From Owenia fusiformis (Eukaryota > Annelida > Polychaeta > Sabellida > Oweniidae): a stretch of 64,000 nt of DNA. Both the position numbers and the translations under genes were made by a program. A model generated the notes under the pieces. It did not search any database, was not told where the DNA came from, and saw only the letters and a list, made by a program, of their open reading frames with translations. The stretch covers positions 20,417,915 to 20,481,914 of the forward strand of contig CAIIXF020000001.1 of NCBI GenBank assembly GCA_903813345.2, in the 5' to 3' direction. Positions 12,729-57,600 of this stretch are shown in pieces (positions within the stretch are counted from its first letter, which is position 1; every line of letters starts with the position of its first letter).

Positions 12729-15700
12729 ATGATGAGTGCCAGCCAGGTTCTGTTGTTCCTTGGACTGTGTGTTGTGCTAACTATGGGTCAACAATGGTCC
12801 TGGAGCCCATGGGACCCTAACAATCCATCAAATACAGACTGGCAACAGGCAGGAACAGATCAGAGTAAACCCTTTTATGAGAATGACCCATTTAATCCTT
12901 GGTGGAGGTAAGGGACTTCATTTAAGGATTTAAGCCCTGGACTCTTGTGGACGGATTGTCATTCCTCCAAGGTGGTCTATCAAATTTTGCATGAGATTTG
13001 CAGAATTGAGTGTTAAGTTTAGGAAACAACCCCTCGGTGGAATGAATCAGCCACAATGCATTGAGTCCTAGACTTAAATTCTTTTCAAAGAATATATTTT
13101 CAATGTAACTTTTTGCAAGGATCAAGTTGGCAAAGTCTAGTAGTTGTCACCTTGACAACCATTCTACAAATGACCTTGGGTTGAATGTTGGTTTGGTAAT
13201 GCAATGCGGTTTATGAAATAGCTTGTTAATATTGACTGGAATTGGACACACCTTGCCAATCTATGTGTGACTTTGTCATTAAGCACTTATATTTAAAGAT
13301 AAAGGTACCAGCATTCTAAGGCCCGCTCATTCTATGACCCATGGGCCATTCACCATTCATTAAAGTTCACTGAAAATAATGCACATTATCTCTTATTTCC
13401 AATGTAATCATAGATTTTTCAGTCAAAACGTATGTTTTTTTTCTTTACATGCTTTAAGCATCATGAATCATTATTCCTTAATTCAATATTTTCAGTGTCT
13501 CCAATGGGAAAGATAATTATGAATAAGAATTTTATGATCAACTGTGTACATTGGCTTCTTGATAATTTGAAATTTTAATTCCAGATACAATCCAGAGGTG
13601 AGGGCACGTACACTGTATGGAGACATAGCAGGCTTCAGTATTCCTATAGAGGAGAGAGAAAACCCGACCACTGGAGAAATCTACAAGAAAAGAATGAATT
13701 TATTTCTGGGAGTTCCTTATGCTAAGCCCCCCATTGATAATCTGCGTTTCATGGTAAGTAAAGGCTTTAGTAGCTATACGAGTATGTAAGGTAGATACAC
13801 AGTAGTGGCCTAAAAATTGATTACCAATAACAGGGCTTGCATTAACGGCGTCCCATACATGTTAAGGACTCAAAAATAATTTGGAGGACGCAAAAATTGA
13901 AAATATTTCCGTTTTTTGGACGCAAATTTTTTTAGGTCAATACTACAATGTGTTTACAACGATACCTAACAAAAACAAATAACTATGATCTCTCACCTTT
14001 ATTTGAATCGTAAATAAGGCTCAACATGTTGAATATTTACAAATAATCATGATTCTCTCGAATTTTTCGACTTTGTTTATTTTTAGATTTGAAACCATGA
14101 CACGCCACAGTTTTTCCTATTCAGAAACAAATATTAGGTTATTCATGAAATAAAATGTATTCATTGTCGAATGAATGAACATGCATTTATTCAGTCCGTA
14201 CTTAACGTTTACTTCCGTTTTAAATTCGCGGCAAGAAATCAAAAACTGAAAGGTGTTTTGGTAAAAAATGCTTTTAAAATAAAGTTATACCTCAAAACAG
14301 GCTAGAAATAGGGGACACACTTTTTTTCAAAGGACACACTTTTTTAAAAAAAATTGCGTCCTTGGGACTCACAAATTTTCTAACCTAATGCAAGCGCTGC
14401 CAATAATCTGTTCTTGCTCTTTGAAAAATGAGATCACAAAATTTATATGGCAGATCATTTTATGATGTGTGTATATGACTTTCATAAGTAGGACCTGCCT
14501 GAAGAACTAAGCTTTGGCCACATGATTGTCTTCTCAAGAGAGGAGTTGCTTTCCTTGATGATTACAATATCTCTTCCTACTTTATATTGAGGCCTTTAGT
14601 CCTAATATAAGGGGCAGACCATTAGATCTTTGGGGAGTAATTTTTCTGGGTAAAGAAAGTTCAGTTTTGAAGACAAGTATCACAGGCTTCAACTCTCTTA
14701 TAATATTGAAGATCCTATCTACGGTTGAACATACATGGAAATGGAGTGAATTTGAAACACTCAGTTTGCTCTATAAAGTTCATAATTATGTTTTCACTTT
14801 CAAGCGGCCACAGTCACCAGAGCCTGTAAGTTAAGAATGAAGGACTACAGTTGACGGATTTAGATTGTTTTGGAGTTGTTTCAAAAAAAAGCTATTTTAA
14901 GTGTTAGTATGCCTTTTTGAGAATAATGACATCATGAACAGAACTGCTCTTAAATAAAGATTAATCAAGGTTTCAAATGATAATATTTAGAATTAATGAA
15001 CTTTGGTTAGTTCAAATTGCCACCATTATATTTGGTTGTTTGTTTTATAAACTGTTTGTGGAAATCAATTTGGCACCAGAGATCCTCCAAACCTAAATAT
15101 TGGCATACTGACACTTTAATGGCACAGACAGGTTATTTGTGTACTGGTCTATGTTAGGGTTTACTAGTTTGTGTTACAGGGTATAAGGGACTGGTGTAGG
15201 AATATCCCTGCTACTACTACATGTATACATGTATCTAGTGATATTTGAAACAAACAAAACTTTATAATATAGCGCAGAATAGTTAACCTCGAATTGACAT
15301 TCAATATTCAATCATTGTCTAAGCATACACAATATATACACTGTACTCGTGGTACCATGTACTTTACTTTAATCTTGGCAAGTCATTGTTTTTAATCAGT
15401 GTGCTATTATTTCTATATTTTAGAGACCTGTTAAGCCTGTGTTCCCAACAAGGATCTGGGAGGCCAAGTCATACCCCCCAGCCTGCCCCCAGCCACTCTG
15501 GTACATCAAGAGAGATATACCATCATTCACAAATAGGAACATTAGTGAAGACTGCCTTTATCTCAACATATTCCAACCCAATGTAAGTGTTTCATACACA
15601 ACAGAAGAAGTGAACAATATAATTCAATCATTATGTTGATGATCTTAAGAGCAAGAAATGGAAAAAATATATGAATTTTGATTTGATATATTCAAAAGGA

Positions 15701-18700
15701 TCAACATTTTGTATCTGGTTAAATCAATGTGCAATATTTTTTAATAACTAGGAATTGAAACTACATGTATCTGCATAATAGGTGGTCGGCACTTTCTCAG
15801 CTTAACTAACATTACATTATTTTTCAAATACTCCATTTTGAAAGGTTTTGATGAAGCCATGTTTACACCATATAATAACCATGGATTTGTATTTCAGATA
15901 AGCAGCAATCCTGCGAGCCACAGGTATCCAGTGATGGTCTACATACATGGGGGTGACTTCCTCTATGGGTCTTCAGAACAGGCTCCAGGACTTATCATCG
16001 CACAACACGACATTGTATTTGTGGCGATGAATTACAGATTGGGGGCACTTGGTATGTTATGTAATGATTTTATTAGTGTAGAATGTGTATGCATAAAATA
16101 ATCTGTTTTCTCTAGGACAATCAAAGTACATTATAACAAGTTTTCAATCATTATTTTAATTTTTATTGACAAGGTAAAATTTAGGGTAATATTAGTCTTT
16201 TGCTTGTTGGTAATTGATAAATTTTATGTTACAGGTTTCATGAGTACCCAGGATGCATATTCTTGGGGTAACTATGGGTTATGGGACCAGAAACTTGCCT
16301 TGGAGTTTGTTAAAGATAACATAGAGAACTTTCAGGGTGATCCAGACAGAGTGACTCTAGTAGGTTCAGGGGCAGGGGGTCAGAGTGTGGGGATGCACAT
16401 GGTCAGTCCACGCACCAGGTCTCAAGGTATTGAACCCATAAGATAACATTACACACTATCAGTTTGCCATCATAAAGAGCCATTTTGTTTACCTTTTCAA
16501 ACAGCACATGTAATATATGAAATTGATATTACGACCTTTCATGGGACCTTGTTTTTAGATGTTTTCTCAAATGCGATCTAATATATGATTCCAGGTTATT
16601 TTCACAAAGTGATATTACAAAGTGGGACTGACATTAGTCCACAGGCCTCTGTAGAACCATTCTGGAGACCTGAGACATTTGCTGAAGACCTGGGAAGACT
16701 TGTTAACTGTCCCACAAACAATCATGGACGAATGGTGCGTTGTCTGCAGGAGAGGAACTTTAATGAGATTCTCAGTGCACAGTTTAGGATTGGTCTTCAA
16801 GCTAAGGAAGCATGGAGACCAGAGTCAAAGCATTGTCCTGGTGCAACTACCAGAGTGAGTTTCTTATAGACTAAATCTATATTTTCACTTACTTGTTAGG
16901 GTATCATCTTCAAAATGAAAGTTTCATGGAAAAGTCATGGCACCATTAATCAATAACCCAGATGCGAGTAGAAATAATCTTGATTTACGTCATTAAAAAT
17001 TCAAAATTCAGTCAAAGTAATATCATTTGGTAACTACCTACTCGCATTTGGGTAATTATCAAAGTTCATTTATACTTTTTTGCCTGGCACTGAAATGGCA
17101 GTGAATCTTTCAAAAAGTTTCATTATGACTATGATTTTGTCATGATTATATACTGTTTAACATAGAATCATATGAATACTTAAACTCAAATAAATGCTTA
17201 TGCATCTGTGTTGTTATTGTTTGCTCATTGTATTCCAGCCTGGTACAGTTGAGAACCCCTGGGCTCCTGTACAAGATGGTATATACAACTTCCTGCCTGA
17301 AACACCCATTGATCTCAGGTATTCAGAAACATTTTCCAAAGTGCCAATGATGATAGGTTTCAACAGACACGATGGTGCAGAAAAAGCAAGTATGTATACA
17401 TACAGTGTGAAGGTGATCTCTTCACAATTTAGATAATAAATCTTAAAAAGATGTTGTTTGTGTTGAAATGATTATTATGCTTTGGATAGAGATGGATTTT
17501 ATGTGATGTTATGGTCACCAAGTTTTTTGTGACGGTTGTTGGCATTCTGCATCCGGAGTTCAGCATCTGTAACAAATGGCAGGTGGTGATATTTGGCATG
17601 TTAATGCTTTGTTTTGTGTTGAAAAGATTATGCTGAATGGATTTCATCTGATTTTTCTTTATGTCTATATCACCACAAATGACAAAAATTAACCTCATTT
17701 TTGGAACCATAATGTTGATTCTTTAAGACAACTTCATCCCTGAATGTTATAGTTTAATCAGTTCTACACCTGCATCATAGGATGTCTTTGTTTATTCAGA
17801 TTATACAATCAGGAACCTGGAGAATGGACTGGAGGAGTCAGCGTACCAGCAAGCTATCTGTCAGTACCTAGATGACTATAGGATTTACCATCTAGACAAT
17901 GCATTTGAAGCCATTCACTTCCACTATTCCTGGCATGCTGAACCAAACAATGACACAGCACGTAGGGAAATGTTATATGATGTAAGTTGAAACAAAACAC
18001 CGATGTTTTTAAAAAATTTTAATTTGCTAAAAATCGCCCTTTCTTATCTTATTTTGACGCAAATTGCTTACCTTTTTTCATGTCTTATTTCATTTTCAAA
18101 TGTTTTCTGATATTCTTTCGCTTTAAAACTGTTTTAGCTAGTCGAAATGAACCATTAATCTAAAAAAATTACTTTACTTTCATTTCACCGTTACTATGTT
18201 CTCGGATGTACCAGCGTACTCTTATTAATTTGTTCTGTTCGATATTTTAGTGCATTAGCGTTCGGTATTTCAGTGCACTTTTCTCGAACTTTTTCTCGAT
18301 GTACATCGCGATGTGCATCGATGTTTACTACTGAAAATTGCTGATGCATCGATGTACGATTATGGCACATCGCGACAACACTACTACTTTCTAGACATTC
18401 AACTTAGCCTAGTATATTGATTTTCTTACTGGATCTTCCAATTAGATAATTTGAAGTCAAGCTATTGCTATTAGGGTGTTCATTTTTATCATAACTTTTA
18501 TTTTTCATTTTTATGTCCTCACCAAAAGTGATGACACATTTTTATATTCTCAAACTTTTTATGGACACTCTTCGGTGGCAGTTTGTATGTATAACAAATG
18601 GTGGTGACATTTTGCATGTTAATGCCTTGTTTAACCTATATAATTCACATTTATATACATGTATATATACATTTCAGCTTTATACAGACCACAGGTTTGG

Positions 18701-20203
18701 TTCACCTGCAGACACCCTCATCAGGAAACAGATGGATCATGCAGAGACCTACATGTATATGTTTGGATACAGGTCATACCAGGAGGAGAAAAGTCCATAT
18801 TGGATGGGTAAGCAATAATATGTTGAATTTTTGCAAATTATTTAGCTTCATTCTAATAAACGATCGTAAAGAAGTGTCAATAATGTCGAAAGCTATTTGA
18901 TGATGATTGGACTAAACTGATATATGCATTGAAGGGTTAACTAAAAAAGGCAATGTGTTTCAGGTATAACAAAGGAATCTGAGGTCCAGTACACACTAGG
19001 GTTCCCATTGATCAACATCACCACTGAGAACTACACACGTATAGAAACACCATATTATGACTGGATGGACCAGAATATCTCTGACTTTATGGTCACTCTA
19101 TGGACAAACTATATCAAAGATGGGTAGGTTTAAGTGCAAAATATTAGTTCAAATTATATGAAAGCTTGTATTCATCAACTTAGCCTAGTATATTGATTTT
19201 CTTATTGGATCTTACAATTAGATAATTTGAAGTCAAGCTTTTGCTATTAGGGTGTTCACTTTTATCATAACTTTTTTTTTATTCTTATTATCAAAACTTA
19301 TTGAGGTTACTTAATCGCTTACTCAGTACTTTTTCTATATTGAAACATTGTGTTTACCTCCACCACCAAATTCTACAAGCAATCTAGCTATTTCATCGTG
19401 AAATAGAATATCTAGTACAATTGACCAAAAAAAGAAAAGAAAAATACTCATATCTATAACTGTGAGATTTTTATTTCAGTGTCCCTACACCCTATAGAAT
19501 TCGCAATGTTACATGGGAGCCATATAATATGTACAACTTGACCTATCTGTGGGTAGATGAGTGGCCAGAGAATAGAATTAGATATAGGCAGAAATACTAC
19601 TCTTTTTGGCAGGATTATTTCCCACAGATATCTGAAAGAGTCATAAGTGAGTACTATATTCGCAATGTCCAATATGCAATCATCTCAAAAATAATTTTAA
19701 AAATGTACTTTTGTTAAATGATGATCCATTGGATCATCATTCTGATTGATATATCAAAGCCGCAACATGTGTATGTAATAATTCTATTTTACTATGAAAT
19801 AAATCACATATAAAAAATAAAAAATTAATATATCATTTGCTGGGGATAAAAACATTACAAAATCTTAATACAATTCACTATTTAATGAGGAAACCTCAAT
19901 ACTGTAATAGTTAAAAATATTATTGTATTACAAACATGACAAAGATCAATCATACTTCCAGATATTGTCACAGCTACCCCTACAGCTATAGGTCGGGAGT
20001 ATCGGTACTCAACTTGGGGGATGACAGCCTTCACTGGTTTGCTTCTTATCTTCATTATAGTAATGTCAATACTACTCTGGCGACAACATAGGAAAAATGT
20101 TGAGGCGAGAGACTGGATGACTAGTACAGAATTTAGTTCAGTGACTAGAAATAGAACATTCATGGAGTCACATGACAGTTTCGGGGCTCCGAGATTACGA
20201 TAG
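12729..20203 (+). CDS. Membrane-anchored, catalytically dead cholinesterase/neuroligin-like protein (gene A)
   Basis: Twelve exons with consistent phases encode 714 aa: 12729-12907, 13585-13753, 15424-15582, 15898-16051, 16235-16426, 16595-16854, 17239-17389, 17800-17981, 18678-18807, 18964-19123, 19480-19646 and 19962-20203 (TAG). A signal peptide (about residues 1-20) leads into an alpha/beta-hydrolase fold of the carboxylesterase type B family: FLGVPYAKPP, EDCLYLNIFQPN, HGGDF (186-190), YGLWDQKLALEFVKDNI. The nucleophile elbow is GSGAG (264-268), so Gly266 replaces the catalytic Ser, as in neuroligins. The acid position is Asp416 and the His position is Lys529, so hydrolysis is very unlikely. 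A short Thr-rich stalk, one transmembrane helix (about 653-675) and a 38-residue cytoplasmic tail follow. Probable role: cell-surface adhesion or ligand binding. It is the upstream member of a tandem pair. Whether it is a true neuroligin orthologue is doubtful, since the stalk is short and no PDZ ligand ends the tail. Confidence 0.88.
13831..14399. mobile_element. hAT-like MITE in gene A intron 2
   Basis: Ends CAGGGCTTGCATTA and TAATGCAAGCGCTG form short imperfect TIRs with the CAG..CTG form of hAT elements. CCAATAA flanks both sides, compatible with a degraded 8-bp target duplication. Internally there are GGACGCAAATTTTT-like and GGACACACTTTTTT repeats. No transposase frame. Confidence 0.55.
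16951..17062. mobile_element. Short MITE with ACCCAGATGCGAGTAG ends (deletion derivative)
   Basis: Begins CAATAACCCAGATGCGAGTAG and ends CTACTCGCATTTGGGTAATT, inverted termini. The left 80 bases are nearly identical to the left end of the 443-bp copy at 60841-61283, but most of the interior is missing. Lies in gene A intron 6. Confidence 0.6.
17515..17690 (+). repeat. Dispersed GGCAGGTGGTGACATTTTGC repeat, copy a
   Basis: Diverged member of a family whose core is GTAACAAATGGCAGGTGGTG-ACATTTTGCATGTTAATGCC. Other copies are at 18510-18635, 25325-25430, 37035-37180 (reverse) and 50600-50700. A CACCAC-AA(G/A)TGA word at the distal edge recurs in several copies. In gene A intron 7. Confidence 0.5.
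17995..18393 (-). mobile_element. hAT-like element fragment (CGCGACAACACTA end)
   Basis: Reverse-orientation relative of the element at 43221-45156. It keeps the ACATCGCGATGTGCATCGATG subterminal region and the TCGCGACAACACTA terminus, and joins directly to the opposite subterminal region. It therefore lacks the 1.5-kb insertion present in the 43-kb copy and supplies the empty site. The left end is truncated. In gene A intron 8. Confidence 0.6.
18401..18506 (+). repeat. 105-bp direct repeat, unit 1
   Basis: AACTTAGCCTAGTATATTGA... through TTCATTTTTATCATAAC is repeated with few changes at 19175-19277, on either side of two gene A exons. The spacing suggests a local intronic duplication rather than a mobile element. 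Confidence 0.5.
18510..18635 (+). repeat. Dispersed GGCAGGTGGTGACATTTTGC repeat, copy b
   Basis: Good copy of the core (AACAAATGGTGGTGACATTT then TGCATGTTAATGCC) with the TCACCAAAAGTGATGACA edge. In gene A intron 8. Confidence 0.5.
19175..19277 (+). repeat. 105-bp direct repeat, unit 2
   Basis: Second unit of the repeat described at 18401, in gene A intron 10. Confidence 0.5.
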
Positions 20204-23234: not shown

Positions 23235-26200
23235 ATGGGTTTTAGGGTGACATTCATCCTTTTAATGAGCGGACTGTTTGGAGGAACAATATCTCAATCG
23301 GACGATGTGTTTAGATCTTACGCCCATGCTGGTGAAGTGAGAGGTTTCACCCAAACGGTATTTAGGAAAAATATTAAAGGATACTCCACAGATTGTAAAG
23401 AGGACCCATGGGACAACATTGATTCTGGAAATGTTGACAATATATGTTACGATCGGTATAAAGTGAACACATTCCTAGGAATTCCTTATGCTGAATATCC
23501 GACTGGAGATCGCCGATTCCGTGTAAGTGGTAGAGTACTAATTTCCATGAAAATAAGTAATCTAACAAAGTGAAAATACCTGTCTTACTCTTGCCCACAT
23601 GTTATTCACTTCCTTGTTAGGATGATTAATGATCGGAAGCCAGAGTTCCAAATCTAGGTCTTCCAACTGTCCTGCAATTGTGTATTTGTCACGCATTTGC
23701 TGGAAAGTTTTTTGCGTGACAGAATATGTCTCGCAAATATGCATTTTACTTGATTATTTTGTCAAGCAAAAATATTTCTCATCTGTAGAAAAACTTCCAT
23801 TAGTGAACGCTGATACATCAAAAAACGAATGCCAAAAAAAATTGCATGCATTTCGTTTGGACCTTTCGTGCGGACACAGTATATGCCAAGCATTTCCTCG
23901 AAATATTTCATTCCCAAAAACTTTTTCCGTCCCAGCGCGGAACTTTTTTTATTGAAATTTGCCCCCCCCCCCTCTTTTTGGTTCCCAGATCCTCCCCTTA
24001 AACCCTACCGCCATCTCGAAAAGAGTTATTGATGAAAAATGAACATTTTCTCATTCTGTTGATAAACCCATACGATTGGAGATTCGACTACTTAAAGAGA
24101 ATCCTAAAATTCTCAGGAATTTATTGAGGTATGTTATTGGAATAAACTATAAACCTCGTGCCAAAAAATATCAGCCTTTGAAAATAAGGTCTTCACGACC
24201 ATACTTCAGGGTGGGTGTGGCACATCAATAAGAGGATCACACATTTCCTATTGGCGCGTTAGTGCATACAGTGTATTGTGCACTTTCATTATAACAGTGG
24301 ATGAATAAGAAGCTGTCCTCAAATTATGTTAAATAGTTGGAAAAATTGTCATTCCAATCCAAGTGTAGGATAATACCCGAAAATGAACTGGCACACCTGC
24401 TTTTACGATAATTTTGTATTGAGTTATAATAGGCTTCTGGCAAATTTCGTGCAGAATTAAGATTGACATTCTCACACCATGTGTTGGTTCATTTTTTTTA
24501 TTTTATAATTGTATGTTATTGAATTACTGTCTGCTATTAGTTCTTCATCAGAGAAGGCTACCTGTTACATAACCATTGTTTCATTGTTCTAGGCACCTGT
24601 TTACCCACCTTCATGGCAGAGATCCATAGATGGGAGGAGATACAAAGATGCTTGCCCCCAGCAGCTGTGGAAGATGGACTACCTCACTAATGTGAATGCA
24701 ACAGAAAACTGCCTGAATCTTAACATATTTATGCCTAATGTAAGTTAGCATGCATAATAAAGCAAAAGTACACTCTCATAATTTCAATAAAGACATATCT
24801 TTTGTTTGGTTTTGGTGAGGCCATGTGATGCCACGTCAATTATGTCCCATTGTGTCCCCCAAAGTAGTCTCATCCAGATTCTTAGTTTACATAGCCTCCC
24901 CTAACTCCAGATCTAATTAATATGTCCTTCACACAGTGCTTATAGTGCATAATTTTTGTTTTTCCTTCTTATTTTCCATTAAAGGCTATTACAGCTTCTC
25001 TGTTATGATTCAAAGCCATTTATCCCAAACTAACATCTGAGGATGTCAATTTCATGGTTGAGTTATATTTTTTATTTATTTCAGGAGACAGATGGCAGGC
25101 CAGAGTACCAGAGGAAATACCCAGTGTTTGTTTGGATACATGGATATAATTACCAATATGGGGCAGCACATCAGTGGCCTGGTCACATGTTGGCAACAGA
25201 GAAAATAGTTGTGGTTACTTTCAACTATAGGATGAATGCTCTAGGTTGGTATTAAGCCAAAGTGGAAAGACATCTTGTACTGACCAGATAGGCTTGAGAG
25301 AGCCATCCTTTAAAATTTAACATCTATTTTTGTGGACAGTGTTCGGTGGTTGGTGTTGGCAGTTGGTGTTTGGTATCTGTATCAACAGGCAGGTGGTGAC
25401 ATTTTGCATGTTAATGCCTTGTTTGTTCAATATTATTTAAGCTATAAAAGCTGGGAAATATAGAATAAAAATAATTGGTGTCAACCCAGCTACAAGCCAT
25501 TTTAAAGATGTTTTATCAAAATTATTATCAGTTAGCAGCTGATGTAACCATTCATGAATATTCTTCCAGGCTTCCTGTCCACCCAGGACAGACATGGCTG
25601 GGGTAACTATGGCATGAGAGACCAGGTTACAGCATTAAAATGGGTGAAAGATAACATCCGATATTTTAATGGGGATGACCGGTGGATCACTGTGGGTGGT
25701 ACAGACTCAGGGGCAGCTGCTGTAGGTTTTCACCTTCTTTCACCATTGACCAATGGTAGGTTAAGAATTATTCACGCCTTTAAGATCAAATTCTATGTGT
25801 GATTTTGAAGATAATGTAAATGATGCTTTCTTTAAATAATCTTTACAAGGCTGTGACAATATATCTGTCATGTTAATGTAATGTATATCTATTTTCAGGT
25901 CTCTTCAGGCAAGCCATCCTGATGTCTGGATCAGATCTTAGTGAGTGGGCATATGTAGATAATACTATGAGACCCAAGGTAAACATCTTACATTAAATTA
26001 TCCCACTAAACAAAGTTTGAGTCAGATTATAGAGAAGCTACATAACCATTACTATCAGTTGTCAGATTAGTATTTGATCCATATTTTTGTGTTGAGCCTT
26101 AAAGGCATAGGACTCTCCTACAGAAAGAATTTTCAAGATGACTGCTTAATTCAAAATGGCCAACAGTTTTCAGAAGAAATATAATTTTGATAACAAATAC

Positions 26201-29200
26201 CAGTTTAAAAATGTTCTTAATGTAATGTGGTAGGCACTGGGCAGAGGGCTTCTTATTAAGAAATTATGAATTGAGTTGATGGCCGACCCACTCAGGAATT
26301 ACATTAAATCTTTATGTTGCTTCCTTATGGGTACCTTTTATGAGGTAGTGTTTTCCCCAAGATTTTTCATGTGTTTGCAAATTGCTCAGTTTTCACATAC
26401 CTGCCTAAAATTCAATTTTTCTAGGTTATGTTCATTTTTATAGAGGTGCATATAGGTTTTCAAATTGGTGCAAGGTTGTTCTAGAAATCTCAAGTTGGTA
26501 CAGCACCAAGTTGCTCCAATCAATAGGTGACTACAGCAGTTTGATCATTCTCTGTACATTGACTTGTTAAGCATATTTTGATTGATTATTTACAACAGGA
26601 GTATGGCAAAGAAATAGCAAGGCAACTCTTATGCCCTGTGGATGACAGTGAGGCAATGATGGAATGTTTGAGACTATATAGGTCTCCAGAAGAAATAGTT
26701 AATGCATCTGCAAATATTTGGCCAAGGGTAAGGGTATTTTATGCTTAGGTTACTAAAAAATTGGGTTACTGTTGATCAATTAATATAACTTTAACATATT
26801 CATTGATATTTAGTCTAATACATGAACTGTCACGATTGGCATCAAAACATTTTCAAACGGCGTGATCTTTGGATCGATAATGATGATTTATTTTCTGTCA
26901 CAACTGCATACAGATTTAAACTTGGTTATTTCATTTTTGTAGGAAAACAAAGATTTCTGGGAGCCCTACTCCACCGTTGCGGGGCCATTTGCGCCAGTCG
27001 TAGATCAAACATCCAATAATGAAAATCCAGAAAGTTTCTTACCTCAAACTCCTCGTGCCATGAGAAATTCTGGCTTGTTTAAAGTAGTTCCCGTCCTTGC
27101 AGGATTGAATAAGGATGATGGTGCCTTTTTATTATGTAAGTTTAGTTCAATTACAGGTTGGCTCAAAAATGAGTGCAGTTTAATATTAAAACTCTCTTGG
27201 TTGTAATAACTGTATTTTTTATTGATACTACCACTTTTATTACCAACAATGATTAGACCTCTCAACCAAAAAGATTCGATATTGCTTTGATTATTTAGAA
27301 TGACCAAAATTACTCATAATAGCCAGCCTTCATACACCATTATCACCCAGATAACAATTTCAAATGAACCTCACAGAACTTGATATGTGATGACATAATT
27401 ACTGTCATTTTTACCTTGACTATAGTTTCAAAATATTTGCATTTTTCAGGGAATCAAACTAAACATATGAGAGGTGTTGACTTCAATCAGGGAATGGACT
27501 ACCAAACATTCCGTGATATCATAGCTCAATTCACATTTGATAGACGCATCAGAGACAGAGACAGTGTAAATAGTGCCATAGAGTTTGAATATGCTTATCA
27601 TCCCAACATCCATAATAAGTCTGCCACCTTACAAGCTGCAAAGGATGTAAGATTTTATCCATCTTGTTTCATGAAGATCTCAGTTGGTAGAACCTGCATT
27701 TTAGAATCTCTAATCAGTGAATCTCATTGGATTGACAGTTTCCTCAGGCCTAAATGCAACAACATTATACTGATGATAAAATATTTAAGTGATATTTAAG
27801 TTACAATACCCTGTGTGAAACCTCTATAGATAATTTTATATTCTTTACATACTTTAGTACTGAACCACTTGGTAGTCATTTATCCAAGACATTCATGTTG
27901 ATGCCTTGCTTTGTAGATGTTTGGTGACTGGTTATACGGTTCAGGGGTAGATGAGGTCCTAAAGCAGCATGCTCAGGCCAATGATGAAGTCAAGTGTTAC
28001 ATGTATGCATTCCACTTCAGGGGACCTTATGATCGTAAACCAAAGTGGTGGGGTATGTATTTAGTTTGATAATAATACCCATGTGACCATTCCAATATTC
28101 ATAAAATTTTTCCTCATATTGAACAAAATTTAGGTTCACAGGTGTAGATTATTCAAGCACTACCTAGCCATTAACTTAGGTCTCAACATGTTAGTCAGCG
28201 TCTTGCTAAAGACATTTTGGGATCACAATTTATGATGTTCAACTTCTGATTGTTACAGGAGCTCCCCATGGCAGAGACGCAGAGTCTCTCTTTGGATTCT
28301 CTCACATGAATGAGACAGTGCAGTTCTTCTGGGATTGGACAGAACTTGAACTCCAGCAGAACTACACAGATCATGATCGCAATATCAGTGACTTTATGAT
28401 GAAGCTTTTTGGCAACTTTATTAGATCCGGGTATATATACTACCGTATTCTCTCCAATAAACGCACAGTGCGTCTACCAAATTCTCCTGAAGGAGATGTC
28501 TAAAATGACAAAATCCCCAGGGATTTGTGAAAAAAAAGTTTGGGCGATAATAGGGTGTTTCATGATTTTCCTCTTTAAAACTAGACTCACTCCAACTAGA
28601 TAACATATTATCATACCTCAATGTTTTCCTCATGCATTTATCAATCTGCTGAATGTGTTTCCATGGGTTAGTTGACATAATATGCATCAATGTTGATGAT
28701 AAACATCCACTCCAATCAATCCGAGCAGACGCCATTTTTAAAATTGATGCCGATACCCGAGTTAAAATCTAAAGGCTTCTTGTACCTAAATGGTCCTCAT
28801 AGTTGGTGAAAATATGTTTTATATCCATATAATGCTACTTAACATTTATAAAGGATTGAATATTTGTTTGTGGGAAAGGGCAGAAGAATATTTAAGATCG
28901 GAACTCCCATGATGCACTGCGAGTTTGAGTAATGGCGACGGGCCCGAATTAACGTTCATTGTAGCTTTTAACTCATCACTATAAGGTTATCATGAACGTA
29001 GTTATAGCTCATAAGGTTCCTTAGACATGTCTGTAACAGCATTATACTCACAAACGGCTCTATCGATAGCGGTAAGTGAATAATTCAATATTACCCTATT
29101 ATCGCCCGCTCGAATAAACTATATTTTTTCTTGATTTTTGTTTTTCAAGTTGCCAGTCTTTCTTGGAAAAGTCGGGTGTGCATTTATTGGAGTTTGTGCG

Positions 29201-32074
29201 TTTATTAGAGATAATACGGTATATTCTAAGAATTTGATATACTTCATGTATACTTTCAAATACTTCATATGTGTGTAGTTATACACCTCGCATACATTTA
29301 GGAACCATACACCCCACATGTACAAACATAAATTCTGTACTTTCAGAGAGCCAACTCGAGAGTATGAATACTTTAGAAATGTAACCTGGTTGCCATTCCG
29401 TCCCCAGATGTCCAACCTCAGCTATCTTCTGGTTGATGAGAGGAGCAACCAGTCAGTCAATTACAAACAAAGTCATTTTGCCTTCTGGAGGGACTACTGG
29501 CCTCGGCTGATTCAACGATACCCCAGTGCGTGCAGTTTGTAGAATACTTCATATTGATCACTTATTTGTGATAGATAAGAATTGCTTACTATCTTTGAAT
29601 TAACTGATTGTATCAACTATAGAGTCTTTGAATACTATTGCAATTAAAGTTAACTTTAGGATATATGCATGGTCAAAGTTAGTCAAGACCAGGGAGTGTC
29701 GGTTTTGAGATTACTATGAATATACATTATATCCAATTTCAGGTGTGATCTAAGTGAACTCTAACTCATGCCAACATTAACATTTGTCAGATTTGATTCA
29801 TATATTTATTAGTCTTTGCCTCTGTGGTGTGAATGTTAGCACATTGGACTTATAATGCCTAGGTCCTGGGTCAGTCCCAGTATGTTGCAAAAGGACTTAG
29901 ATAATGTTAACTGGCACACCTGACAGGTGATTACTAGATGAGCTGCTAACTTGATAAAATATTAGCTCTGACAAGAACTGCCTATGGTCTTAGCCTGGAT
30001 AATGATACCAGGTCCTGTTAGATTAATATGGAAATCTGTTTCTACCTTAAGAGTAGATTAAGATATCAAATTACATTATTCTACCACACATATATGCCAT
30101 ATGGTGTCTCGTGTGAGATAATTGTAACTCATAAATGAAATGCAATGAAAATTGATTTAGAAGGCCAATGGCACAATTCATATTTCAAATATAATATTTA
30201 CAGCTACAACAACTCCAATACCTACACCACCTGCTGCATTAGAGTATGAGGTAGCAACCTGGTTCCTGGTGGCCCTGGCTGTTATATTCCTTATCATTCT
30301 CATCATTATGTCATTGATACTATGGCAACGAAGCAGATGGTGATGACATCTGTTGACAGATCTGAAGGAGAGGCTAAAATGTAATTTTGTATTCATAAAG
30401 GAATGATTTAGTACTAGCATTTACTTTTCTTTACTAACCAATGTTTTCTTCTGTGTTTACTAAAAAATGTTTTCTTTTGTTTTACTAATCGATGTTTTCT
30501 TTTGTCTTTACTAACAGATGATTTCTTTGCTAATCAATGTTTTTTTTTAGTTTTAACTTAGTTTGAATCTGAACAGGTGCCTCATTGCTTATGAAATAAA
30601 GATGGTGCAATGGATACTATATTAACCATGTAGAAGTGGTTTACAACACTAGCAATTTACCCATTCAAAGGGCCTTAAAATGCCAATTACCCAGAGGGCC
30701 TTAAAACGCTAAATACTTAGCTGTTGACCTTGGCCGAGAAATGTTCACCCTGACCTCGGGTCATCTTATCATAGGTTGCCATGAGTCACTGCAGTCCCAA
30801 AAGGCCTTTAAGCATCAAATTCTTAGATATTGACATTGGAATGACCTTGACCTCACAGCAGTCCAAAAATACCTTAAACCGCCAAATACCTAGATATTGA
30901 CCTTGACCCATAAACTTGACCTTGACCTCAGGTTACCTAAAAATGGGCCTTTTTTGGGCATAGTTTGGCCATGGGCCTTAATTTTTAAAATGTTTTGGTT
31001 TAAGGGGCCCAAATTTTTTTCTGAACGCAGACATTTTTTCCAGACTCAACATTTGGCCCCCCCACCTTGTTAATTTCTGGATCCGCCACTGTCTTTTGAC
31101 TCTATTATCTAACATGCATGTAGCACAAATCACATATACATGTATATATTGTATATGTAGTTTGCTTTGGAAATACTGTAAAACATGTTTAATTTTATGA
31201 ATTCTGAATTTCTTTCATACTATTTTGCGTCATAATGATTCTTGTTGCACAAGATTGTTATCAGTGGTAAATTTTTCAATCAGGACTTTAAAAATCATCA
31301 ACAATCAATCATTTTTTGAGGAAATAACATTAAGTATGTGCATAAAAACATGTTTTACAGTATTCTGTCTCTGTGGTATTTTGTGTAATGATTTCTAGAT
31401 ATTTTGGTTCCATTTTTCATGCACATGTATCTTAATTATATTTTATGTTTTTAATGTGTAGTCTTTTGATCTTTTAATGAATCTGTTAGAAGTAGTGTTA
31501 TATTCATTTGGGGCATTTACTATTCAAAATATCATGCGTTAAAGTATGTAAAATTCAGTATTCTTTCTCTGTTTTATGTTGTGTCCTGATTTTTTAATAT
31601 TTTGGTCCCATTTGTATGCATACATACCGTAGTATTACTAGCCAACTATCTATCGAAGGAAAATCACCTTTTACATCAATATATCTAAACAAAATTAATA
31701 TATATTAAAATTAATAGTCTTCTAAAAGAATTATTCCATTGTTTACACAAATAAATGCTTTTGAACTCAATTGAAATATACACTGCGCATGTAAAACGAA
31801 AAATTTAATGTATGATTTCATACGCTTGAATAAGATGCATATTCTACTGATTGTGCTGTGATTAAATCAATTCTCTCTATTTTCAGCTACCACCACACCT
31901 ATCCCCACACCTGTGATGTTGATTGAGTTCCAGGCTGCCACGTTTGGTCTGGTCGGCCTTGCTTTACTATTCATACTTATTATTGTGACCCTTTCTGTCA
32001 CTTGGTGGAAATGGAAACAACTTTACAATAAAGAATATCGCTATGTAACTAAGAGAAGTGAATCAGAGATATGA
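23235..32074 (+). CDS. Membrane-anchored, catalytically dead cholinesterase/neuroligin-like protein (gene B), long-tail form
   Basis: Twelve exons give 684 aa: 23235-23522, 24593-24739, 25085-25244, 25570-25755, 25899-25978, 26599-26727, 26943-27135, 27450-27646, 27917-28052, 28259-28430, 29347-29525 and 31887-32074 (TGA). The start ATG opens a hydrophobic signal peptide (MGFRVTFILLMSGLFGG). The fold is carboxylesterase type B: FLGIPYAEYP, ENCLNLNIFMPN, WGNYGMRDQVTALKWVKDNI. The oxyanion motif HGG is altered to HGY (164-166). The nucleophile elbow is GTDSG (242-246), so Asp244 replaces Ser; the acid position is Asp389, while His509 is kept. The enzyme is therefore almost certainly inactive. 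A Thr/Pro stalk, a transmembrane helix (about 639-663) and a basic tail ending S-E-I follow, the last matching a class I PDZ ligand. It lies 3 kb downstream of gene A and shares ten intron positions with it. Probable role: cell-surface adhesion or receptor. Poly(A) signal AATAAA at 33130-33135. Confidence 0.87.
23590..23800 (+). repeat. Dispersed repeat with GTCACGCATTTGCTG core, copy 1
   Basis: Matches the reverse complement of about 63430-63600 (shared words CAACTGTCC, TTTGTCACGCATTTGCTG, GTGACAGAA, AAATATTT). Located in gene B intron 1. Family unknown; both copies lie near poly-C/poly-G tracts. Confidence 0.4.
25325..25430 (+). repeat. Dispersed GGCAGGTGGTGACATTTTGC repeat, copy c
   Basis: Close match to the core including GGACAGTGTTCGGTGG and GCAGGTGGTGACATTTTGC. 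In gene B intron 3. Confidence 0.5.
28440..29221. mobile_element. TIR element with TACCGTATT ends in gene B intron 10
   Basis: Left end TACCGTATTCTCTCCAATAA (then ACGCACA) and right end TGTGCGTTTATTAGAG-ATAATACGGTA are inverted copies with few mismatches. The terminal TA dinucleotides suggest a TA target. The 0.8-kb interior contains GGGCGATAATAGGGTG and TACCCTATTATCGCCC in inverted orientation, a second pair of subterminal inverted words. Non-coding. Confidence 0.55.
30204..30343 (+). CDS. Alternative last exon of gene B (short-tail form)
   Basis: Same acceptor phase as the exon at 31887 and a paralogous peptide: TTTPIPTP stalk, then AALEYEVATWFLVALAVIF transmembrane helix, ending QRSRW before TGA (30341-30343). 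Splicing from the exon ending 29525 gives a 668-aa protein with only a few cytoplasmic residues and no PDZ-type tail. It has its own poly(A) signal AATAAA at 30595-30600. The two exons evidently arose by exon duplication. Which one is used, and when, cannot be read from sequence. Confidence 0.8.
30640..30950. repeat. Imperfect tandem repeat with AGATATTGACCTTGACC units
   Basis: Three to four degenerate units of roughly 75-80 bp containing GGCCTTAAA, CCAAATACCTAGATATTGAC and GACCTTGACC words, lying between the alternative last exons of gene B. Probably minisatellite-like. Confidence 0.4.
30950..31091. mobile_element. hAT-like terminus (GGATCCGCCACTG)
   Basis: Ends TTTCTGGATCCGCCACTG, the complement of a CAGTGGCGGATCCAG terminus widely seen in hAT elements, and is preceded by TTTGGCCCCCCCAC. 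The opposite end was not located, so this is probably a fragment. Confidence 0.35.
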
Positions 32075-32284
32075 TCTCATCATTTGAAAGGCTGAATTAA
32101 TTACCTGAGAATAATATTTGAAGTGTATTGATTGGAATTCAGTTACCCATCAGTTAAGGAGCTAGAAAGGATAGAGATGAGTTGTAAGAAATACCATAAG
32201 GAAACCATTGGCTGGAGTTTTGAAAAGATTGGTTGCAACATTTTACGCTTTCTATACCTTCTCATTAATTAAATGCGTGTGTAG

Positions 32285-32370
32285 CTCTAAACATAGTCTG
32301 AAACAGAAATTAGACTACATAGTCTGAAACAGAAATTAGACTACATATACAAAGTCTGAAGCAGAAATTA
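32285..32370 (+). repeat. Triplicated 25-35-bp unit in gene B 3' UTR
   Basis: Three tandem copies of AGTCTGAAACAGAAATTAGA-CTA with minor changes, within the 3' UTR of the long-tail form. Each unit has AGTCT at its start and its complement AGACT near its end, so each could form a hairpin. Confidence 0.55.
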
Positions 32371-33573
32371 GACTATTAACCAAGAGGCAGGTGTTTAATT
32401 TTCTAAAAAGAAATATGTACATCTTCATGTATGTTCTTGCCACTATGTATATTATAGCTAAATTATTTGCTAGACATATCAGCATATGAAATCACATACT
32501 AGAATTCAAACAGCTTGTATGTTTGTTTTGAGAAAATCCAGTTTTCATGTATGAAGAATAAGGTTTACTAACTACCTGTTCATGCTAACATCTCCCTAGT
32601 AATGAAGAAATAGGGGTCAAGTATTCAGGATTGTGAAGTATTCTTTGAGTCCATGGAAATTTTGTGAGATAATAGATGTCACTTACCACTCTTAGCAATC
32701 AATGTACTTTTACAATTTACATGTAACTTGTAATTACCATTCCAACATAATAGTGTAAATATTTCGTACATTCCATTTATAAATGAATATGTATTTTAAT
32801 ACAATGAATTGTACATAAGTAGTTAATTTTTATACTTTTTGATTTTTCTGTTGTATTATACTTTTTTAAAATAATGGTGTTGTCCAGTAGTAACTTGTCA
32901 TGTTAGTTGACTGTAGAAATACTATGTAGACTGTGCATACTGAGAAAATGCATATTTTTAATAATGAAATGTATTACATGATCACCTTTAAATATTTGCA
33001 GTACAAAACCATTGTATTCCTGATCATCTACAATAATGTTTGTATATTTTGTAATTTATATATGTATTTTAGATAACGTACATTTATTTGGACATACACA
33101 CAACTTTTTTAAATCATGATTGTTGAATGAATAAAGTAAAATGAAACATTTTTGTAAATTCTTTTTTTTTGTTCATATGTGCATGTTTTAAAAACGCTTT
33201 AAAATGCCACAACTCTATCTCTCCACATTATGTACATTACATACAAACTTTTGTAGTTGCATAATATCAGTGGGACTAAGTAAAACAAAAATAATGTTAT
33301 TGAGCCTTAACTCTTGGTTGCCATGCGGATATGGTACTGTCGGTGAAATGTTGGCTTAGTTTTTTTTTTAGTTAGTTATCAATCCCATGGAAACAACATC
33401 ACTATAATGATGAATTTCATTTTCTAATTTATTAACTTATTGGAATCATTGGATAGTGGGTATTTTCATTCGAAGATAGATTAGATAACTCGACATGAGA
33501 TAACACCATTTGCAAACGACTAAGTGAATACGAAAGGACCTTGGTTGAATATTTTGTCAGTAGAGGTGGAAGA

Positions 33574-36500
33574 ATGGGTATGTTGGGTGTTGCATTGGCT
33601 AGTATGTTGTTAGGCCTAGTGGCTGGACATGGTCGTCTCATAGATCCTGCTGCAAGAAATTCTATGTGGAGATATGGTTTCAGCAACCCACCAAACTATA
33701 ATGACAATGAGTTATTTTGCGGAGGCTTCCAGGTGAGATATTGTACCTGATATAAAGAAATCCAAATACTGATTTGATTGATTTTCAATTATTTCGATAT
33801 TCTTTATTATTTCCATACTCTTTAAGGTCGACAGAGTTTCAATTTAACTTTGATATCATAATAGTACAAGTATGTGAAATCATAAATCACAAGAAAAAAT
33901 CACTCAGAAAGTTTTCTCAAAAGGGGCTCATGGATAATGCGTATCACAGTTAGCTAAAATTTTTCTGAAGGAAAGACTGAGAGAGACGTAATAAATGAAA
34001 GATGTATTTTTTAGTGCACCAAAAATTGAAATCTTCCAAAATATATGTCCCCGGTCATGGTATACATACGCAATCTTTCGTAATATATAGGGGTTATGCA
34101 CTGGGAGGTTTTGGATACAGGGAATATCCCGAGGGATATACAATATATCTTCCCGAGGGAAGATGTATTGTATATCCCAAGGGATATTCCATGTATCCAA
34201 ACCGACCGTGCATAACTGGTGTATCTCATACTTGAGTGGGTTTAGGGTAGATATAACCTTTTCCACCTTTTTCAAATGACAAGATATTTATATTTAACAT
34301 TTTCGTAATATTCTTTTTGTTCAATACAATAAAATTGTAACATTTAAACTTAAAAAAATAAATTTTAAAATTAAAAAATTAAAACTTTTGATATTTAAAC
34401 TTTTTTAAACTTTTGAAAAATTCCCGGGAGCGGGATGGATATATTATATCTGTCCGCATTTGGCCTGGAGCGGGACATATACAATATATCCTGCCCGCTC
34501 CTCAGATACGATATATATATTGCAAGTATGAGATACTACTGAATAGACAGGTTTGTCAATCCTTGTGATACCAAAAAACTGAGACTAACGTACATGGACG
34601 AATTTACAGTCTGTCTGGGACATGATATAATATTGTGGTTCAATTCAATCAAAAAGAAAACAATTGTGATGAATAAATATAGAACCAGAAAACCTTAGGA
34701 GGAAAATGTGGAGTATGCGGCGACCCCTACCAAGGTCCAAGACCACACGAGGCAGGGGGCAAGTATGCAAATGGGATCAGTGCTAAGACCTACAAACAAG
34801 GACAGGTTGCAGAGGTCAAGGTTGAACTAACAACTGGCCACTTGGGTTGGATGGAATTTAGGTAATATAGGCGATTAATTTAGAAAGACGAATTACATTA
34901 AAATAATAATAACTTAAGTTCATTTACTTCAGAATAAAATGTTTTTTTTTAAATAGTCCATTATCATTATTGACTAATATATTTTTCGACCATAGAATTG
35001 TTCACTTAAATTGTTTCCTAAACTTTGTTAAAGTGCATGCTCCTCCCATAGTGAAATAGCCAATTTTTGTACAAATGGAAAATATAAGTTGTAGGTGAAA
35101 TTCAAATAATGAGATACAATCACCTTTATATCAAATATTACCAAAAGGTTATGCAAATGGGACAATCCCACTAAAGTAATCACTAAGGATTGTCTTGATA
35201 AGAATGTACTACAGCTAGCCGATGGTTCAGGCACCAGGGTCCCTATCGATAACACAAAGAGGTTCATCACTGCCAGGTTGCAACTTCCCAAACATATCAC
35301 ATGTACACAATGTGTTATGCAATGGTACTATCATGCAGGTATTGTTGACATATATCGCCGTTTCATTAAAGTGTGGGTAGTGTAGTGTTTCGTACAAGTA
35401 CATGTACCCTCTGTAAAGAAAAAAAGGTGCATGGTCCTTTATCAGTCATAACATTTTCATAATTTTGTATGATATTACTTAATTCTTGGAGGAACGTGGC
35501 ATTAATTAAATTTGAAAAGATTAGATGAAAATTTAAAAACGTTAGCGATGGTTAAATACATTGTCTCACAAACTCACTAGTGTGACTTTTTCCATTTTTC
35601 CTCTAAGCCAAGGATATCATTTTCTATATGTTATATTCTTCATACCATTGTAAAGCCTGTCCCAAACTGGTCATAACTGACAGGTTTAAAATAAACATTG
35701 ACACACTGACAGAAAATCATAGAAGTGCCAAAACCCGCCTAAAACATGGTTTTTAGACAATTTTACGCCTCAAATAGCATTGAAATTAGGGATAGGATGT
35801 AACCATTTGCTCAATAAACACATATATACATGTATATCACATCTGACATAAATTTGGGTATGTTAAGTATAGGATGTATAATATATATATGGATCATTGA
35901 GAAAGATTAAGGGTTATAATTATCTGACAATTTCCAGTTTATTGTAATATATGTTACCCCTACCCTAACTTTGAACTGAGAAGAGGCCTCTGAATCTGAA
36001 GGATATTACCTCAGATTTAATAACAAAATGGTTGTAATAAATCGGACTTTCATGATATAACTGATATTTTTCACAAAGTTTTATTGGATTGAAAACGTTT
36101 TAAAATGATGTATTCCTCTAAATATAACTAACAATTTAACTTCATGTCTCAGAAGATCCCCTTCCTGAGCACATTGCTGGGTATAGGATTTCTCAAATTT
36201 ATGACGTCGATTTATGGTAAAAACACATACTCACGATTTTGGGAGTTGTTCTATTCAACCCTTTTTTACTTTTTACCATATTTAAGAAGTTCTTTGAAAT
36301 TTTATACATTTGGCCAAAATATACATACATTATACCTCTGAATGTTTGGTCTGATAATAACGAAAAATAACGAAAAGATATGATTGGTAAAAGCATGGGC
36401 TTTCAATTATCTAGTTGAAAGCCCATGGTAAAAGACATTGCACCCTTTTTTCTTTGCAGAGGGTAGATATTTAAAGTCAAAATTTGTTAGATTTCTAGTT

Positions 36501-54403: not shown

Positions 54404-54648
54404 TTGTATATCTCCTTGAATATTTTTTCTAAATAGCACTTTATATAGCTAGCGATCATATATAGCTAGCCATCATAGAAGAATAGGGCCAGAATTCTTT
54501 TTGAACTGTAAACAACACACTTGTTTACTGGAAAATTTATAATATTTCTTAGAATAAAGTCAGTAGGCATCATTTCGAAATTCAATAAATTTGCCAGACA
54601 CAAGTATCTTACAAAGTTGCCTTATTACAAGAAAACAAGCAAAGAGCC

Positions 54649-57600
54649 CTAGTAGTTGTAAGAAGGTGGAGGCCCATTCGGGTTTTTCTCATCAGGTTTC
54701 ACATCTGGGTTGTATGGCGGGGGTTGGGGTCCACCTGTTGCTTGAGGCTGACCATATTGTGGCTGTTGACCATATTGTTGCTGTTGACCATATTGTGGCT
54801 GAGGCTGGCCATATTGTGGCTGAGGTTGGCCGTATTGTGGCTGAGGCTGGCCATATTGTGGCTGTCCATATTGTTGGGGTTGTGCCTGTTGTCCTGTAAG
54901 AATGTTAATATATAATGAATGTCATGTACAGGCTGTGCCAAAAAACTTTTTTAGAAGGCTAGAAAAGTATTACAACATTATGGTTGAAGTTGAAGTCAGT
55001 ATTAGCTTAAGTATTTGAATGGTAAAATATGCCTATTTCTCATGTCAATACCATAATGTTATGATACTTTTTTCGCCATCTAAAAAAGTTGCAAATTTTT
55101 TGGGCACACCCTGTACTTATGTCCTGTAGCTATTGTTGGAACTGTTCTCCGATATCACTCCTTGTTGGATCTGTTCAGAAAGCACCTCCCATATTTTCAA
55201 AAAGTGTGGCAAAACTGATTTACTCTTTACTTGGCACTTAATTGTATTTATGGTGATACATTGCTATTTAAAGGAATACCCAAAAATCACTTATACTTAA
55301 ACTTTATCCTTAATTTTACAAATACTAACATAAGAATGCCATTCAATAATCACACAGATGTACAATTAAGTGAGTTTACCTGGTGGTGGGATAACTGTAG
55401 TCGTTTGACCCTGTGGGTAGTATGCGGCCTGCGTGGCAGGCTGGCCTTGGGTTATAACTGTGGTCTGCCTACCTTGAACAACATATCCCGGGGATGACTG
55501 GAAGTCAAACAGAGAATACATAACTACAGAATGATATAAAAATATTAATATGAGTTATTATAACAAGATTGATTCGGTAACAATTTAAATTGTGATTTAA
55601 CCAAGGTCATCTAAATCTGTTTTTTGTGTAAGTATTTAAATGATGAGGTACCGTTATAAAATACTACTGTGCATGCATCATTACTTTGCAGTACAAAAAA
55701 GATAATAAGGCCATTTAAATATCAAACAATGACGGAATGTGCATATAAATGTTGTCGTAAATTACTTAATCAGTAAGATGCATTTGCATTTAAAAACCTC
55801 TACCTCTGGGATGCATTATTATGTCAAAATCCCACCCCTCTGGAGAAACTGTGTCAAAGTCCTGACCCTTTGCTTTTAAGGGTTCAGCTTTAAATGGTGC
55901 ATAACAAGGTACCGTATTACCATAAGTTTCACTATTGCTGTTGCAAATTGCTATCAGAAATACTCCAGTAAAACTATGAAACAGGACAATTTGGTACAAT
56001 GAGGATATTACGCAACCATGTTAAAATAAACTCTTCTAATCTCACACTACCCTACCTCGATCACGCATGCGCGAATTTTTTGGCTTTCAATCAGGTCGCT
56101 TTTGAGTATATCGACTGCTTATACTCAAAAGGTTAATACGTTTGGTGCTCGGAGTGAGTCAATATTGCTATTTGCTACACTTCAGTGGTGCAATAGTGAA
56201 GTCGATGTTCCAAGTTATATGATAGTTATAGAAAGAATGAAAATAATATCGTTTTAAATTTTAAAATATTTGATATGTCATAGTACACGGTACACAGTTG
56301 CAAGTTGATCAATACAGGGTACAAGGAATGTAAATTGTTCAATAGTACAGGGAGCGAGAAAGTAAGCTGATTATACAGACATACTATGTCCTGACCTCGT
56401 GTACATTTACGTTGCAAACAGTGAAAGTAATGCTAAAAAGGCCGCCTGTTGATGCATTGGGGTGTCATCAATTGTTATTTAATCCAAAAAGGAAACATTA
56501 TTTTGTAGATTTAGACACAAGCTTTCAGGTCGTATGCATTTTAGTCATAAAATTAACAAGAACGCTAGATTATACGTGTTACTAGGATATCAAATTGAAA
56601 TAAAATAATGAAATTAAATATTAAGACGTTAATGATAAATGACTATCCGCTACTCAGAATAATTAAAATTGCCTGAACTACATGTGAAGAATCTTTCTAT
56701 ATAACCCCTTGAATGGTATAATTCACTACCGTCCTCAAAAACCGATCATTTAAAATGTTTTGTTCAAATTCACAAAAATACAGTTGAATAACATACTAGA
56801 AAACATATCCACATATAACATGATGACACGAAGTTTAAATAATAGTTAACTGTTTTTTTGTTACATATCAATTATCAATGTAACATTTTCGAAGGGAAAC
56901 TTACATGCTCCCTGTACGTTGACAGATTTACTGAAATGTATCGTGTATTGCATTCGAGTTTTGCTTCACTGCGCCCACTATTATCTATCTTTGCCTATAG
57001 TGGTTTTTAGCCAACAATATTCTACAAACTGCTTGATGAATCAATTCTATGTCTGGTAGAACACTAGAAATAAATGTAAAATGTATTTTACGTTCAGAAA
57101 TATGAAATTAAACCCACGTCCTCCATTTGCAACTTAGCTGTACCCTGTTTCCATTTTAAACGTGGTCACGTGGTAGGGTAGTGTGAATCTACCAGTGTTA
57201 ACTGCTGCATATAGCCAGTATTATCGGACACTTTGGTAAGAAAATTTCAAAAATTAGTACCGTGGGTACTGGGCTCACATGGTGACAGAAAAAAACGGAT
57301 ATAATTTTTTGCTGATTTTTTGTAACAAGATTATTTCAAGCCACTTGCCACTATTTTGGACTGACGGAGAGACAGATGGACAAATCGATGTTAAGTAAAA
57401 TTGCTGAAAAAAAACGGATATAATTTTTTTCAATTATTTGGAACAAAATTATTGCAAGTGCAAGACACCTGAAATTATTTGTAAAGCTAGGAAATGGGTC
57501 AAAAGTGAATTTCAAGAATGGCGACCATTTTGAAAATAGGCGAGCTTTTGAACCAAGAGTCATAGGAGAGTTTTTTGTATTGATGTTGAACAAAATTAAC

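Follow-up and report, generated by a model that had tools for sequence, protein, structure and literature searches.

In a window of 64,000 nucleotides from the annelid Owenia fusiformis (contig CAIIXF020000001.1; "the window" hereafter means this whole stretch) we found a COesterase-family gene, here called gene B, which spans 23235-32074 of the forward strand and consists of 11 shared exons followed by either of two last exons, 12a or 12b. Both last exons are open to their stop codons, they are homologous to each other and they carry signs of protein-level constraint. Judging from the sequence, it is likely that 12a and 12b act as alternative last exons which toggle the cytoplasmic tail of the gene B protein. 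This would be a type I membrane protein whose ectodomain is cholinesterase-like but probably not catalytic.

The gene B model was obtained by joining GT-AG exons in a single continuous reading frame (Table 1). Exons 12a and 12b are both preceded by AG and both join exon 11 in frame and in the same phase; the split codon A/CT contributes an extra Thr, so that both begin with the residues TTTTPIPTP. The product is 668 amino acids long with 12a and 684 amino acids long with 12b, and both forms are stop-free to their ends. Each exon encodes a single hydrophobic stretch, with a best 19-residue Kyte-Doolittle mean of 3.46 in 12a and 2.84 in 12b. After the helix the 12a form has only the residues QRSRW (ending LWQRSRW-stop), and the 12b form has a basic, Tyr-rich tail of about 21 residues (ending TKRSESEI-stop). 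The two exons cannot both be translated because 12a holds a stop. With its own stop, its own candidate poly(A) signal and a common entry phase, each exon follows the layout of an alternative last exon. An earlier sequence-only reading of this DNA had given the coordinates of both exons, their equal acceptor phase, their TTTPIPTP starts, both AATAAA positions, a transmembrane helix in each exon and the two tails, the second ending S-E-I, and all of these held on re-reading. Its further proposal, that the choice of last exon switches scaffold binding, stands as far as the duplicated, mutually exclusive last exons, their different predicted tails and their possible poly(A) signals are concerned; the scaffold-binding part stays putative.

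When 3,219 forward-strand AGs were scanned for a phase-1 open frame of at least 30 codons with a hydrophobic stretch, 8 distinct frames were returned, among which 12a and 12b took ranks 1 and 2, and between 29526 and 33500 they were the only frames found. A scan which also required at least 11 pyrimidines among the 18 nucleotides before the AG did not recover 12a.

The local alignment of 12a with 12b scored 118, and 2,000 segment-wise shuffles never attained this value. When the genome (498 Mb) was searched in six frames, with 6 candidates scored for each exon, the best non-self match of 12a was 12b (E = 1e-5), followed by the last exon of gene A (E = 0.003) and by matches with E of at least 1.8, while the best non-self match of 12b was 12a (E = 4e-6) and the next had an E of 2.4. 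Gene A is a tandem paralogue which lies approximately 3 kb upstream of gene B, and the two ectodomains share 221 of 550 aligned residues. Its last exon aligned with 12a at a score of 83 (0/2,000 shuffles) and with 12b at a score of 53 (17/2,000 shuffles). The simplest history is that the last exon was duplicated in the gene B line and that 12b then changed faster; alternatively, an older duplication may have been followed by the loss of one copy in gene A.

Among 42 gapless codons compared between 12a and 12b, 8 were identical, 12 differed synonymously and 22 nonsynonymously; the number of nonsynonymous changes per site (dN) was 0.44, and no value was returned for the synonymous changes (dS), as happens at saturated synonymous sites. 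In the stalk TTTTPIPTP, 7 of 9 codons differ yet no residue has changed, which argues for long constraint at the protein level; the probability of 7 one-base changes all being synonymous is about 3e-4. With 0.3 changes per site, neutral simulations (20,000 per setting, with an assumed indel rate of 0.1 per substitution) retained an open frame, freedom from indels and an intact stalk together in 0.01% of runs; with 0.5, 1.0 or 1.5 changes per site no run did so. Since neutral change so readily loses these features, translation of both exons has probably persisted for most of the time since they arose. Some convergence may have occurred in the stalk, given the small number of codons compared and the simple sequence of Thr/Pro stalks. 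We also considered a frameshift origin for the short 12a tail, the alternate frame past the 12a stop reading RSEGE (compare RSESE in 12b) and MTS (compare gene A). This idea was rejected, as 258 of 1,000 and 540 of 1,000 dinucleotide shuffles scored equally well.

The Pfam profile COesterase (PF00135), which covers the whole domain, matches residues 65-610 of gene B (E = 1e-120), and a signal peptide was called by eye at the N-terminus, in the region of exons 1-10. The top matches in the PDB were acetylcholinesterases (AChE; 2.7e-61), with neuroligin-4 not far below (2.6e-57). In gene B the residues GTDSG align with GESAG of AChE and the catalytic Ser of the G-x-S-x-G motif is gone. Because GTDSG stands where GESAG is expected, the gene B protein is probably non-catalytic, that is, not an esterase. 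The COesterase-family genes of the window are intron-rich, which points to an animal source.

Splice sites were scored in a set of 16 acceptors (10 from gene B and 6 from gene A) and 19 donors (11 from gene B and 8 from gene A), the remaining gene A sites being absent from the set. The donor of exon 11, CCA/gtgcgt, had the lowest score of the 19 donors. The acceptors of 12a and 12b scored 4.8 and 7.3, within the range of the other 16 (-2.5 to 13.1). A weak proximal and a strong distal last exon is a usual layout of a regulated choice. It should be noted that AATAAA is weak as sole evidence for a poly(A) site, the forward strand of the window carrying 81 copies, or 1.27 per kb; a motif scan of intron 11 found a single ATTAAA (29643) and no copy of AATAAA. 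The predicted 3' untranslated regions (3'UTRs) differ in length, at approximately 0.25 kb for 12a and 1.06 kb for 12b. The next gene on the forward strand, which is AA15-like, begins at 33574 and leaves little room for exons past 12b. Retention of intron 11 would append SACSL followed by a stop (29526-29542), a possible soluble third form.

The most T-rich 150-nucleotide stretch of the forward strand sits in the 12a 3'UTR; its value was reached by 2 of 6,385 segments of that length, both from this same stretch. Within it a tandem array carries the motif TTTTCTT[CT] three times at distances of 25-26 nucleotides, the sole triple with a spacing of 22-29 nucleotides on either strand of the window, although this count is not independent evidence, the array itself being a tandem repeat. 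A second very T-rich stretch, at 31331-31590 between 12a and 12b, is among the 25 most T-rich segments. In passages on fly ELAV, the sites which suppress proximal last exons sit downstream of the cleavage site (PMC8055025, PMC11551757), and binding was best with a spacer of 25 nucleotides (PMC11551757). Here the U-rich array (30410-30559) lies upstream of the AATAAA at 30595, the fraction of T downstream is 0.30, and the period of 25-26 nucleotides gives spacers of 16-17 nucleotides, unlike the spacer which bound best. Control of the ELAV type, in which the proximal poly(A) site is bypassed, was therefore rejected, and the array is only a lead for regulation because its upstream position is the opposite of the known ELAV layout. 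A U-rich stretch before an AATAAA could equally just aid cleavage. Of seven published ELAV site strings taken from passages of PMC4132933, three are present in 29526-33140: TTTTTTTT as one run at 30540, AATTTTTT at 31012 and CATTTTTT at 31032 and 31310, against totals in the window of 18, 13 and 6, respectively. Among other motifs counted post hoc, the same interval holds 2 of 22 copies of TGCATG in the window, 4 of 44 of ACTAAY and 3 of 8 of TACTAAC (two of them in the array).

The explanation which we favour is that an old tandem duplication of the last coding exon gave rise to two alternative last exons. Joining exon 11 to 12a, with cleavage after 30600, would yield an anchored protein with almost no cytoplasmic tail. 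Skipping 12a and joining exon 11 to 12b would yield an identical ectodomain and stalk with another helix and the basic, Tyr-rich tail ending ESEI. We infer that both last exons are used; the choice between them would be a competition of the weaker 12a acceptor and its poly(A) site with the stronger 12b acceptor, and the 12b tail may bind PDZ or other cytoplasmic partners. A more elaborate version, in which the stalk-helix-tail duplication let a cholinesterase-like adhesion protein alternate between two states, tailless and PDZ-tethered, under the control of the U-rich array in the proximal 3'UTR, appears rather unlikely.

Several observations weigh against the favoured explanation. The pyrimidine tract of the 12a acceptor is poor, 9 other AGs in 29526-31900 (including that of 12b) score at least as high, and the fraction of T in the 50 nucleotides past the AATAAA is low for 12a, at 0.30 versus 0.54 for 12b. 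The very short 12a tail could itself mean that 12a is decaying. With regard to the tail ending, ESEI fits the class I PDZ ligand [ST]x[VIL], as the sequence-only reading had proposed, and does so in the 12b form only, but this is a weak discriminator: when open reading frames (ORFs) with 20 or more codons are counted over all six frames of the window, 90 of 2,092 (4.3%) end in the same way, and the gene A tail, which ends APRLR, lacks a class I PDZ ending. Binding of the 12b tail to a PDZ domain is a possibility which we are inclined to doubt. The closest analogy is Drosophila Neuroglian, and passages on its Nrg180 isoform describe synapse tests in which loss of the PDZ ending made no difference (PMC3627646), because of which even a real PDZ ligand here may matter little.

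These observations can be read in other ways. If only 12b works, 12a would be a relic with a shortened tail, either left out of the transcript or spliced in at trace level; the poor pyrimidine tract of 12a, its acceptor score below that of 12b, the low T past its AATAAA and its 5-residue tail, compared with about 40 residues in gene A, would suit this. However, the stalk and frame of 12a have been kept with no indel even though 7 of 9 stalk codons differ, and 12a is nearer than 12b to the gene A last exon, unlike what decay would give, and we consider a relic quite improbable. Exon 12a might instead give a form anchored by glycosylphosphatidylinositol (GPI), so that the choice concerns the anchor and not the tail. 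The hydrophobic stretch of 12a does lie almost at the C-terminus, and passages of PMC5943944 describe a GPI-anchored AChE which arises from an alternative C-terminal H peptide. Against this, the homologous exon of gene A has a long tail, and two Arg residues follow the hydrophobic stretch of 12a. Arg residues in this position favour a stop-transfer helix, and a GPI anchor seems very improbable indeed. A further reading is compatible with the favoured explanation: the exons would be true alternatives, with the 3'UTR (through stability, localisation or translation) or the helix being what matters and ESEI being no PDZ ligand. The unequal 3'UTRs, one of which holds the most T-rich stretch of the strand, and the frequency of class I endings by chance agree with this, but the change of tail is large and the 12b tail is open to its stop; we regard it as a distinct possibility, although not the expected one.

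Table 1. Positions in the window of gene B, its alternative ends and the neighbouring gene A.
Feature	Position	Strand	Remarks
Gene B, exons 1-5	23235-23522, 24593-24739, 25085-25244, 25570-25755, 25899-25978	+	GT-AG, open frame
Gene B, exons 6-10	26599-26727, 26943-27135, 27450-27646, 27917-28052, 28259-28430	+	GT-AG, open frame
Gene B, exon 11 (last common exon)	29347-29525	+	ends in phase 1, after codon base 1
Gene B, exon 12a (proximal last exon)	30204-30343	+	Thr/Pro stalk, transmembrane helix, tail QRSRW, stop
Gene B, exon 12b (distal last exon)	31887-32074	+	Thr/Pro stalk, transmembrane helix, basic Tyr-rich tail ending ESEI, stop
Candidate poly(A) signal AATAAA, 12a form	30595-30600	+	
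Candidate poly(A) signal AATAAA, 12b form	33130-33135	+	T-rich stretch next 3'
U-rich stretch in 12a 3'UTR	30410-30559	+	5' of AATAAA
Tandem array in U-rich stretch	30428-30528	+	26-nucleotide unit, about 3.9 copies
Gene A, tandem paralogue of gene B	13585-20203	+	exons 5' of 13585 provisional
Gene A, sole last exon found	19962-20203	+	entry phase as 12a/12b, one transmembrane helix, tail ending APRLR

Gene A, pieced together by eye, also matches COesterase (PF00135; E = 9.3e-121) and reads GSGAG at the position of the nucleophile. The motif could be read in 16 of the 19 paralogue loci given (L069, L079 and L081 gave none), two of which, L064 and L070, are one place; the catalytic Ser was kept in all 15 distinct places. 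Two paralogue regions on contig C12 (60 kb) gave tblastn matches to the ectodomain only, with GESSGG kept, and are uninformative on last exons. These COesterase genes, L032 (C12:8668135, +) and L037 (C12:8565038, -), are very similar, carry GESSGG and lie in opposite orientation approximately 103 kb apart.

We also compared a neuroligin-4 fragment with the genome, in a one-way search with no tree, which gave 86 matches with 82 of 281 candidates scored. Exon 4 of gene B was rank 80 of the 86 matches listed (E = 1.2e-9, 41%), in a ranking which favours intronless genes through their longer matches. The best exon-level match for exon 4 was 65% at C8:5655234, a locus with GESAG. This ranking speaks against gene B being the neuroligin orthologue. 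The comparison with neuroligin-PDZ coupling made in the sequence-only reading thus serves as a functional analogy and not as family membership, given GTDSG, the lack of a long tail and the low rank.

Elsewhere in the window, the AA15-like gene begins (33574-33732, +) with a signal peptide called by eye followed by HGRLIDP and matches the Thermobia AA15 protein 5msz (E = 1.3e-7); a Pfam search with this 53-residue start gave no match. At 54567-54899 an open frame carries a degenerate HIVAV repeat.

If both forms are made, gene B would offer a small natural experiment on what is gained when a cytoplasmic tail is joined to a fixed cholinesterase-like ectodomain, and the cholinesterase-like family would join L1-type proteins and neurexins in having a last-exon choice which alters a possible scaffold-binding end. 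The switch is of a familiar kind, and general ideas are unchanged by it. Among the titles and abstract openings listed by full-text literature searches, none dealt with a duplicated stalk-helix-tail last exon in a cholinesterase-like gene that lacks catalytic function.

The known systems which resemble gene B each do so in part; the statements below follow passages of the cited studies. The Drosophila Neuroglian isoforms Nrg167 and Nrg180 are likewise forms of one adhesion protein with unlike cytoplasmic ends, only one of which bears a PDZ motif (PMC3627646, PMC8055025), and their last-exon switching requires ELAV (PMC8055025). However, Neuroglian is an L1-type protein with a FIGQY motif in both tails, and in gene B the duplicated unit includes the stalk and helix as well. 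Honeybee neurexin I has two alternate 3' exons, whose products carry PDZ-type endings on distinct C-termini, but is not cholinesterase-like, and the passages are not uniform on the transmembrane segment of its B form (PMC2570956). The T and H exons of vertebrate AChE belong to a protein of the same fold family, and the choice of C-terminal exon alters attachment (PMC5943944); this protein is catalytic, however, and its exons switch the tetramer partner or GPI anchor and not a cytoplasmic tail. Neuroligin shares with gene B a non-catalytic cholinesterase-like ectodomain, one helix and a C-terminal PDZ motif (PMC2570956 and a worm study), and the neuroligin-4 chain, too, ends in a Thr/Pro-rich stalk. 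Gene B differs in its tail of about 21 residues and in not being the best match in the one-way search, and honeybee neuroligin-3 differs from gene B in keeping its PDZ end in all five isoforms (PMC2570956).

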